DNA of 64,000 nt from a bacterium (lineage in GTDB: Bacteria; UBP15; UBA6099; JAJRTR01): assembly GCA_024278215.1 (NCBI GenBank), contig JAJRTR010000135.1:13435-77434 (forward strand), read 5' to 3'. This document shows positions 11,191 through 63,984 of the stretch, piece by piece. Numbering within the stretch: the stretch's first letter is position 1; each line of letters opens with the position of its first letter. The translations under genes and the position numbers were made by a program. The notes below the pieces were generated by a model. The model was not told where the DNA came from. It searched no databases and worked only from the letters and a program-made list of their open reading frames with translations.

Positions 11191-11313
11191 TGTTTCCATC
11201 GCCTGCGGCGACACAGCGTTTTATTCAGAACCCGTTTCCATGTTGCACATATACGAAAGCATCCCGAATTGCACCGATATGTAACTTCACATAGAATATC
11301 AAAAACATATTAT

Positions 11314-11487
11314 CCCGCATATTTCACAAATGCGGGTGAAAAACCGGAAGAATGCCCATAATACAAGGCGCGGCAAGTGAGGGTGAGGAAGCATCCTGCA
11401 GGTATGTGACCGATCCCGAATCGCCGCCGCAACGTAGTAGAATGGGGGGTCTCACGGTTTTCCGGATCTCTTTGTGAGAAATCCGGG
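11314..11487. mobile_element. Family-1 repeat, copy A (MITE-like, 174 bp)
   Basis: The left end is a palindrome (CCCGCAT ... ATGCGGG, 11314-11336). The right end is another palindrome ending in ATCCGGG (11461-11487). Exact 4-bp direct repeats TTAT flank it (11310-11313 and 11488-11491). The core contains ACAAGGCGCGGCAAGTGAG, CTGCAGGTATGTGACC and CGCCGCCGCAACG, shared with copies at 26436 and 57437. It ends 27 bases before the ATG of the alpha/beta hydrolase and so forms most of that gene's upstream region. The stretch 11191-11313 before it holds no gene. Confidence 0.85.
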
Positions 11488-12446: not shown

Positions 12447-12550
12447 AAATATTCGGGAGCGATCAGGGGCGCTCCGGGTTGTGCCGAAATTGCATTATTA
12501 TTGATACACGAGCGAGGGAACGGATATAATTGACAAATGTAAATCAACAT

Positions 12551-12730
12551 GAGTCGATTGAAAAATTATGTTCGAAAGCGAGGTCGAACGAAATTGGTCA
12601 GAAGCAAGGCGGAGGTGCAAAATCCCCGCAGGCGTACTTGTAGAGTACGTCGAGGACGATTTCGCGCCGACAACGCAGCTGTTGACAATTGCAGCTGACC
12701 GTAGCCGAATCAGAATTTTGCAATTGGCTC
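12551..12730 (+). mobile_element. Family-2 repeat, copy A (MITE-like, 180 bp)
   Basis: The left end GAGTCGATTGAAAAATTATG and right end AATTTTGCAATTGGCTC match the ends of the copy at 63806-63984 in inverse orientation. The interior shares GCAAGGCGGAGGTG, a small palindrome GTACTTGTAGAGTAC and GCCGACAACGCAGC. The pentamer AACAT flanks both sides (12546-12550 and 12731-12735). It carries an open frame that reads on into the K+ channel gene and makes a spurious N-terminal extension. It ends 39 bases before the channel start. The 104 bases between the hydrolase stop and the repeat hold no gene. Confidence 0.85.
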
Positions 12731-12769: not shown

Positions 12770-13978
12770 ATGAAAGAGAAATTCCGGAAGATAATAAATA
12801 AGTTCTCGGACTTCATACTCGAAAAGTATGCCGCGATGCGCAGGTCGGACGTGCCGGTTATTGTCGGCATACTGACGGCGATTATTGTAATGGGCGCGTT
12901 GGGGATACTGCTGCTCGAAAGAGGATCGAATCCCGATATTTCCCGTTTTTACCAGTCGCTGTGGTTCATAATCGTTACACTGACGACAGTCGGCTACGGC
13001 GACCGCTCGCCGATAACGCCGGGCGGCCAGGCGCTCGACATGATACTCATGATGGTAGGCGTGGCCATTATGGGTGTGGTTACGGGCCGCATCGCTTCGT
13101 TTCTTGTGGAACAACAAATGAAAGCCGGACGAGGATTGGTAGGGATGTCAAAGATGGAAAAACATTTTATTATCTGCGGCTGGAAAAAAGACTTGCCCAA
13201 GATTCTCGAAGATGTTATGAAGGTCAATGTCGGTCTCAAGGCGGAGAATATCGTGCTGATTAACCGGCAGGACCATTCTGTGATCGACGACCTGAAGACC
13301 AACCCGGATTTCGCGAACATCAAATTTATCGCAGGCGACCACAGCGATGAAAATGTCCTCCAGCGCGCTAATATAAGAAGAGCGAAAACTATACTGATAC
13401 TCGCCGACACTTCGGGCAACGCCACTCCTCTCGAGATAGACTCGCGCACGGTCATGGCCGCGCTCACGGCTGAATCTCTAAACAAAAAACTTTACATCTG
13501 CGCGGAACTCCTCAACTCGAAATTTGAAAGGCATCTCGAACTGGGCAACGTCGACGAAGTCATTCTCAGCCAGGACTACAGCCGCACGCTCATCGCTAAC
13601 GCATCCAGCGCGTCCGGTGTGGGTCACGTGATCAACCAACTTATCAGCGTCGATTCGAACACGCCTCTTATCGTCAAGCAATTCCCTGACAAGTATATCG
13701 GTAAAACTTATAAGGAAATGTCGAGATATTTCTGGGATAAAGAGTTGTCGATCGTGATAGGCGTACTCGAGAACACCGGGAATCTGTTCCAGCGCAAGCA
13801 GGACGCGCTCAAAGAAGCGCAGAAAACACCGGACATTTCAAAACTTGTGGACAACCTCAAGAGCGTCAAAGAGATGAAGGCGAACGATCCGGTATTGAAT
13901 CCACCTGCCGACTATGAATTGAAGAAGAATTCCATGGCGGTAATGATCGGGAGGCACGCCCGCTATGAAACAAACTAG
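12770..13978 (+). CDS. MthK-like two-helix potassium channel with RCK domain
   Basis: 402 residues from the ATG at 12770; upstream in-frame starts lie in the repeat element or its edge and are rejected. Two transmembrane helices (VIVGILTAIIVMGALGILLL and the helix after the pore) enclose the selectivity filter TVGYGD. A cytoplasmic RCK/TrkA-N domain follows, starting KHFIICGWKKD, with the MthK-like ICGW in place of a classical GxGxxG. A C-terminal RCK-C-like part and a helical tail (DALKEAQKTPDISKL) end the protein. It overlaps the next gene, a cyclic-nucleotide-binding protein, by 14 bases. Role: ligand-gated K+ flux at the inner membrane. Confidence 0.88.
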   Translation: MKEKFRKIINKFSDFILEKYAAMRRSDVPVIVGILTAIIVMGALGILLLERGSNPDISRFYQSLWFIIVTLTTVGYGDRSPITPGGQALDMILMMVGVAIMGVVTGRIASFLVEQQMKAGRGLVGMSKMEKHFIICGWKKDLPKILEDVMKVNVGLKAENIVLINRQDHSVIDDLKTNPDFANIKFIAGDHSDENVLQRANIRRAKTILILADTSGNATPLEIDSRTVMAALTAESLNKKLYICAELLNSKFERHLELGNVDEVILSQDYSRTLIANASSASGVGHVINQLISVDSNTPLIVKQFPDKYIGKTYKEMSRYFWDKELSIVIGVLENTGNLFQRKQDALKEAQKTPDISKLVDNLKSVKEMKANDPVLNPPADYELKKNSMAVMIGRHARYETN

Positions 13979-14489
13979 AGAACAACTCGATGAGATAATC
14001 AAAACGCTGAAAGGTGTTTCGATCTTTAAGACTTTCGCCGAAAAGCCCGAAGAACTCGAGAAGATCGCGAGCATCCTGAAAATGGTCTCCATGAAATCGG
14101 GTGAAACCGTCATCAGGGAAGGTGACGACGGCGATACGCTTTTCATCATGAAGTCGGGCTCTGTAGACATCCTGAAAAACACGCTCCAGGACGAGCAATA
14201 CACTGTCGTAAATCTTTCGAGCAGCGAAAATATGATAATCTTTTTCGGAGAGCTTGCGTTGCTCGACAGCGACAAAAGGTCGGCGACTGTCCGGACGACG
14301 AAGGACTGCGATTTTCTGGTGCTGAAAAGGGACGACTTCATTCAACTCGGCGACCAGCACCCGAACCTGTGCCTGCCCATCACACGCGAAATATCAAAAA
14401 TGCTCGCTTCCCGCCTCCGCAAAGCAAACCAGGATATCATCACACTTTTCGAGGCGCTCGTTTCCGAACTTTCCGACGAAGACGCGTGA
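13965..14489 (+). CDS. Cyclic nucleotide-binding domain protein (stand-alone)
   Basis: 174 residues. Residues about 18-140 form a CAP-type cNMP-binding beta-roll: MKSGETVIREGDDGDTLFIM, then the phosphate-binding cassette FFGELALLDSDKRSATVRT with the Glu and Arg that contact cyclic phosphate in the family. There is no DNA-binding domain: the tail is a single helix. The gene overlaps the channel gene by 14 bases, so the two are co-translated. The likely role is a soluble cAMP/cGMP sensor subunit for the K+ channel; this is inference from overlap and domain pairing. Confidence 0.85.
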   Translation: MKQTREQLDEIIKTLKGVSIFKTFAEKPEELEKIASILKMVSMKSGETVIREGDDGDTLFIMKSGSVDILKNTLQDEQYTVVNLSSSENMIIFFGELALLDSDKRSATVRTTKDCDFLVLKRDDFIQLGDQHPNLCLPITREISKMLASRLRKANQDIITLFEALVSELSDEDA

Positions 14490-26390: not shown

Positions 26391-26435
26391 TTTAATTGCA
26401 CCTTAATCTTAGTAATTTGCCTTTCGCACTGCTAA

Positions 26436-26610
26436 CCCGCATATTTCACCAATGCGGGCCAAAAATCGGGAGAATGCCTGTAATACAAGGCGCGGCAAGT
26501 GAGTGGTGCGGGAGCATACTGCAGGTATGTGACCAATCCCGAATCGCCGCCGCAACGCAGTAGAACAGGCGTTATAGCGATTTTCCGGATTTCTTTGCGA
26601 GAAATCCGGG
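26436..26610. mobile_element. Family-1 repeat, copy B (MITE-like, 175 bp)
   Basis: Left palindrome at 26436-26458 and right palindrome ending ATCCGGG at 26610. The core is nearly identical to copies A and C (ACAAGGCGCGGCAAGTGAG, then CGCCGCCGCAACGCAGTAG). Flanking tetramers are CTAA and CCAA, one base from an exact duplication. It lies directly upstream of pilM. ORFs drawn through it are in inconsistent frames between copies and are not genes. Confidence 0.85.
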
Positions 26611-57432: not shown

Positions 57433-57436
57433 TTAC

Positions 57437-57627
57437 CCCGCATATTTCACCAATGCGGGCCGAAAATCGGGAGAATGCCTGTAATACAAGGCGCGGCAAG
57501 TGAGTGGTGAGGGAGCAGCCGGCCTCTTGCGCAAAATGCTGGTATGTGACCGATCCCGAATCGCCGCCGCAACGCAGTAGAACAGGCGTTATAGCGATTT
57601 TCCGGATTTCTTTGTGAGAAATCCGGG
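57437..57627. mobile_element. Family-1 repeat, copy C (MITE-like, 191 bp)
   Basis: Left palindrome 57437-57459 (arms CCCGCAT/ATGCGGG); right palindrome 57601-57627 ending ATCCGGG. Exact flanking tetramers TTAC at 57433-57436 and 57628-57631. The core matches copies A and B but has an extra 16-base or so insert (CCGGCCTCTTGCGCAAAATG) making it longer. It lies 22 bases from the 3' end of the PAP2 gene. Confidence 0.85.
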
Positions 57628-63805: not shown

Positions 63806-63984
63806 GAGCCAATTGCAAAATTCTGATTCTGCTGCGGTCGGCGGCTATTGTCCATAGCTGCGTTGTCGGCACAAAATCGTCCTCGACGTACTCTACAAAG
63901 TACGCCTGCGAGGATTTTACACCTCCGCCTTGCTCTGAACAATTTAGCTCGACCTCGCTACGAACATAATTTTGCAATTGGCTC
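63806..63984 (-). mobile_element. Family-2 repeat, copy B (MITE-like, 179 bp)
   Basis: Ends GAGCCAATTGCAAAATT (63806-63822) and AATTTTGCAATTGGCTC (63968-63984) are perfect 17-bp inverted repeats. The interior is the reverse complement of the copy at 12551 with about 85% identity by eye. Its long frame feeds a spurious extension of PhoH. The elements flank is CTTA on the left and TTTA on the right. The region 63666-63805 before it holds only the phoH leader and no gene. Confidence 0.88.

Follow-up and report, generated by a model that had tools for sequence, protein, structure and literature searches.

A gene for an RCK-bearing K+ channel and a gene for a separate cyclic nucleotide-binding domain (CNBD) protein overlap in the window, the stretch of 64,000 nt of bacterial DNA that was analysed, and the pair is conserved well beyond it. 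We interpreted the two genes as probably encoding a two-subunit, cyclic-nucleotide-regulated K+ channel, with an RCK ring made with the help of an internal start and the CNBD protein docked on a hairpin of the RCK domain.

The gene pair and its products

Both open reading frames, their coordinates and their overlap (Table 1) were as first noted in an earlier reading made from the letters alone (the sequence-only reading). The channel start at ATG 12770, from which the 402 residues were counted, is not certain, and in-frame alternatives were present at ATG 12734 and TTG 12689. The GGAGG before the CNBD gene was spaced 10 nt from the start. This fits translational coupling to the channel gene, which is the probable arrangement.

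Table 1. Features of the gene pair, with positions in the window
Feature	Position	Strand	Remarks
Sigma-70-like promoter candidate	12501..12530	+	11/12; consensus match only
Channel gene	12770..13978	+	402 aa, TM1-pore-TM2-RCK, MthK-type
Selectivity filter TVGYGD	12986..13003	+	From sequence
GAGGA Shine-Dalgarno-like site, 9 nt, ATG 13145 (M126)	13131..13147	+	Proposed start of a soluble 277-aa RCK
RCK C-lobe insert, residues 336-371	13775..13882	+	Predicted helical hairpin, proposed CNBD docking site
GGAGG Shine-Dalgarno-like site of CNBD gene	13950..13954	+	Within channel 3' end; from sequence
Stand-alone CNBD gene	13965..14489	+	174 aa; 14-nt overlap with channel gene
Phosphate-binding cassette FGELALLDSDKRSA (E96, R105, S106)	14244..14285	+	
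Family-specific CNBD C-helix end, NQDIITLFEALVSE	14427..14468	+	Relatives: N-x-D-[IV]-x-[KT]-L-x-x-A-[LF]

The channel matched the Pfam domains Ion_trans_2 and Slo-like_RCK/TrkA_N. Its best PDB match was MthK, both by sequence and by fold, and it had the two TM helices, the filter and the single C-terminal RCK of an MthK-type K+ channel. The filter was present in 170 of 205 relatives.

The CNBD protein matched cNMP_binding (PF00027) alone, and had the fold and the cassette Glu and Arg of that domain. The AF2 model (mean pLDDT 93.6) consisted of N-helices, a beta-roll, the phosphate-binding cassette and a single C-helix of 41 residues. No DNA-binding or catalytic domain appeared in it, which bore out the earlier view that the protein lacks an effector domain. 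The closest folds were CRP, PKG and stand-alone CNBDs. A CRP/FNR regulator was rejected, since the protein ends with the C-helix and has no C-terminal DNA-binding domain. CRP/FNR and stand-alone CNBD proteins (e.g. 3gyd) share the CNBD fold, whereas the protein of the pair lacks the helix-turn-helix and has a family-specific C-helix end and a channel partner.

Repeats were also present in the window. An inverted 93-nt repeat (90%), probably a dispersed intergenic element, had one copy upstream of the channel gene (12638-12730) and the other at 63806-63898. Two further repeat families were seen (11311-11487, 26433-26610 and 57434-57627).

Conservation of the pair and linkage to an RCK insert

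Searches with profiles and proteins, over genomes that included a named collection, yielded 297 distinct channel homologues. In 209 of them, counting the one in the window, the match reached the C-terminal end of the profile and a CNBD open reading frame lay directly downstream on the same strand; 82 had neither the full C-terminal end nor a downstream CNBD. The repetition of the gene order in 208 other distinct loci indicated that the pairing was beyond chance. The sequence-only reading had named a lack of conservation in relatives as refuting its idea, and the pair clearly withstood that test. When the start nearest the junction was taken, about half of the 209 pairs overlapped and most others were at most 30 nt apart, the commonest junction being a 4-nt overlap.

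The holders belonged to at least seven named phyla, and included Kryptoniota, Fidelibacterota (Marinimicrobia), Thermodesulfobacteriota, Myxococcota, Cloacimonadota, Deferribacterota and Spirochaetota. A Campylobacterota MAG had a degenerate pair. The channel profile was matched at E 1e-80 or better in 156 of 245, 26 of 40 and 74 of 247 genomes of three phyla, with a few of these matches being of the insert-free channel kind. Among plasmid records there were distant matches only, none over more than 80% of the query and the best at 32% identity. A scan of genome contigs with a single-protein query gave no match, and the full set of 19, once aligned, proved too diverse for use as a scan profile.

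No third gene was generally conserved around the pairs. A large gene followed the pair in only 5 of the 15 named loci; in L042 this gene encodes a class I tRNA synthetase. At L023:2-1447, a TPR protein with several CNBDs was encoded directly upstream of one pair.

No chain with a fused RCK and CNBD was found among the 297 homologues. The bacterial CNG K+ channels MloK1 and SthK share with the pair a K+-selective pore and a CNBD with an intact phosphate-binding cassette. In those channels, however, a single chain carries the 6TM channel followed by the CNBD, whereas here the CNBD has a gene of its own and the channel is of the 2TM-RCK type. A channel of the MloK1/SthK type was rejected on these grounds. 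The word 'split' used in the first reading, if taken to mean a broken MloK1-like ancestor, found no support, as no fused chain was seen among these homologues and the channel is MthK-like rather than MloK1-like.

Alignment with close CNBD-less relatives revealed an insert of about 36 residues in the RCK C-lobe. An alignment of 277 channels was used to measure the segment between residues 332 and 376. In the 209 CNBD-linked channels it was always 32-49 aa long; in 60 of the 64 CNBD-less relatives it measured 7-14 aa. Of the four exceptions, two were long SAR324 chains and two had a tandem RCK. This clade-specific insert thus tracked the CNBD, in support of the channel-CNBD association proposed earlier. 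In a genome with both kinds of channel (G221), the insert channel adjoined a CNBD and the insert-free paralogue was without one. The AF2 model of the channel (mean pLDDT 87.8, about 83-87 in the insert) showed a two-helix hairpin, residues 339-351 and 356-367, between two C-lobe strands.

When the insert columns were left out of the tree building, the CNBD-linked channels grouped as one clade (support 97), with L232 outside and the tandem-RCK channels L233 and L234 inside. Since these channels are essentially one clade, the link between insert and CNBD stands for few independent events. Contrasting C-helix and insert states on the tree gave one independent event only.

Two further observations concern the hairpin. 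SAR324 loci L074 and L083 encode channels of 570-600 aa without the hairpin, with about 250 residues in its place, probably a tandem RCK. At L367:10498-11400, in a genome of the same order as the window (G002), a soluble RCK had the same C-lobe hairpin. It adjoined a DUF1538 membrane protein and a 372-aa protein of PII-like appearance, with no CNBD there; the same RCK module may here serve another transporter.

Co-occurrence beyond synteny provided the strongest evidence for channel and CNBD being functional partners. Among 98 genomes, the CNBD profile gave 20 matches scoring 155 bits or more, and their genomes were precisely the 20 that have an insert channel. The next match was at 118 bits, a gap that is partly by construction as the profile was trained on adjacent pairs. 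Nineteen of the 20 top matches were the adjacent CNBDs used in the training; the twentieth genome, G086, was independent of it. In G086, G227 and G356 the insert channel had two RCK domains but no CNBD beside it, and in G227 its frame was broken. The family CNBD was nevertheless found on another contig, at 156-162 bits and matched to the profile end. Genomes without an insert channel (G004, G392, G393, G111, G247 and others) had generic CNBDs only, at 111 bits or less, nearly all of which stopped short of the C-terminal end of the profile. The part before which generic CNBDs mostly end is the family-specific C-helix end.

These results bear on whether the CNBD protein works elsewhere, as an independent cyclic nucleotide sensor, and has only its operon in common with the channel. 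CNBD proteins that stand alone are a general occurrence, and the window's own genome has others far from the channel. On the other hand, the channel-CNBD pairing was exclusive across 78 family groups, the family CNBD was retained when unlinked, and the channel has a matching insert. We considered an independent sensor very unlikely.

Mean-field DCA on 205 pairs (effective number about 160) gave scattered inter-protein couplings and no convincing interface. In the genomes of family f83 (L364-L366), the unlinked family CNBD followed genes for a Memo-like protein and a metallo-beta-lactamase-fold protein. One of these neighbours weakly matched the anti-Pycsar protein Apyc1.

Internal start signal in the channel gene

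An in-frame start with a Shine-Dalgarno match was present 40-60 codons past GYGD, in the TM2-RCK linker, in the window and in 167 of 198 paired channels. In other 20-codon windows the same signal was found in 4-22 of 198. At the GxGL site of the relatives, the Leu codon was TTG in 98 of 104 (14 expected), and the Glu four residues upstream was GAG in 87%, versus 34% elsewhere. This codon bias indicated selection beyond the amino acids.

The linker signal was also found in 35 of 58 CNBD-less relatives, and so belongs to the MthK-type heritage. The tandem-RCK variant L018, which would have no need of a soluble RCK, lacked the signal; L033-type channels are exceptions to this loss, and L233 retained a match. 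The signal suggests that the channel gene, like that of MthK, also yields a soluble RCK, here a predicted product. Most prokaryotic channels with a single RCK rely on a soluble RCK, translated from an internal start, to complete their octameric ring (PMC3510474).

MthK, the archaeal Ca2+-gated K+ channel, thus shares with the channel of the pair the 2TM pore, one RCK per chain and the internal start. It differs in that the paired channel lacks the Ca2+ triad and has the C-lobe hairpin and an obligate separate CNBD protein.

Ligands and proposed mechanism

The cassette Glu and Arg were intact in 200 of 205 CNBDs, and the protein is predicted to bind cAMP or cGMP. The residue following the Arg was Ser in 105 and Thr in 88 of the 205, a mix by which sequence does not distinguish the two nucleotides. 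The own genome contained eight strong and one marginal matches to class III nucleotide cyclases.

In the Spirochaetota loci L311 and L312, near a named Treponema MAG, the cassette Glu and Arg were lost (FGKAALLGEDFHGS) and the pair persisted; these CNBDs are possible ligand-independent derivatives. The CNBD of L066 had also lost cassette residues with the pair kept. Ligand binding is therefore not a universal requirement. The CNBD protein could then be a constitutive structural or assembly subunit, with cyclic nucleotide binding secondary or not the physiological signal, and the conservation of its C-helix end would agree with such a role. The near-universal cassette and the wealth of class III cyclase domains in the own genome argue against it, and we regard it as unlikely.

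The sequence-only reading had proposed a hetero-oligomeric channel that responds to both an RCK ligand and cAMP/cGMP. The heteromeric part was supported. For an RCK ligand such as Ca2+ or a nucleotide, neither the MthK Ca2+ triad D184/E210/E212 nor the GxGxxG nucleotide motif of KtrA and GsuK RCK2 was found in any of 205 RCKs; the window has Leu at the E212 position. The absence of the motifs removes support for two ligands; it is no proof that the CNBD has replaced the RCK ligand, because CNBD-less relatives may lack both motifs too. RCK domains are usually ligand-binding, GsuK is gated by multiple ligands (PMC3510474), and a non-canonical site is possible. Joint gating is doubtful but conceivable, and as a more specific version of our preferred interpretation its probability overlaps with that of the latter. 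GsuK is also a 2TM RCK-regulated K+ channel, with a tandem RCK like the family f83 variants. It differs from the pair in having GxGxxG in RCK2 and in activation by ADP/NAD+, with no CNBD partner mentioned (PMC3510474).

For the two-subunit, cyclic-nucleotide-regulated channel that we favor, the following mechanism is proposed. The channel gene would give full-length TM1-pore-TM2-RCK subunits and, from the internal start, soluble RCK. Four full-length and four soluble chains would assemble into a tetrameric pore with an octameric RCK ring, on the MthK pattern. The second gene would supply a protein that binds cAMP/cGMP and docks on the ring, the C-lobe hairpin being the most likely site and the family-specific C-helix end the hairpin's likely partner. 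Binding of cyclic nucleotide by this protein would change the conformation of the ring, and thereby the gate.

A precedent for docking of a soluble subunit on an RCK/KTN domain is KefC-KefF, in which such a subunit controls a K+ system by bracing this domain (PMC2920069). KefC, however, mediates efflux and has a different fold, and KefF is homologous to quinone reductases; neither is related to this pair, and no CNBD is involved.

No description of an RCK channel whose CNBD subunit is separate was found in the open-licence papers searched, in agreement with the earlier statement that no described system of exactly this form was known to that reader. Both components are of known kinds; to our knowledge, their combination and architecture are new. 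On balance, we lean towards a widespread and undescribed class of K+ channel, with an in-trans cyclic nucleotide sensor on a clade-specific hairpin and three polypeptides from two overlapping genes, independent of the CNG/HCN/MloK1 lineage.

If this is true, the pair would represent a second, independently evolved architecture for cyclic-nucleotide control of K+ channels, with a detachable sensor on the RCK gating ring. The hairpin makes this proposal directly testable, and the pair would be a tractable system for how a trans-acting sensor drives a gating ring. cAMP/cGMP signalling would gain a direct membrane target in Marinimicrobia, Spirochaetota and other phyla.
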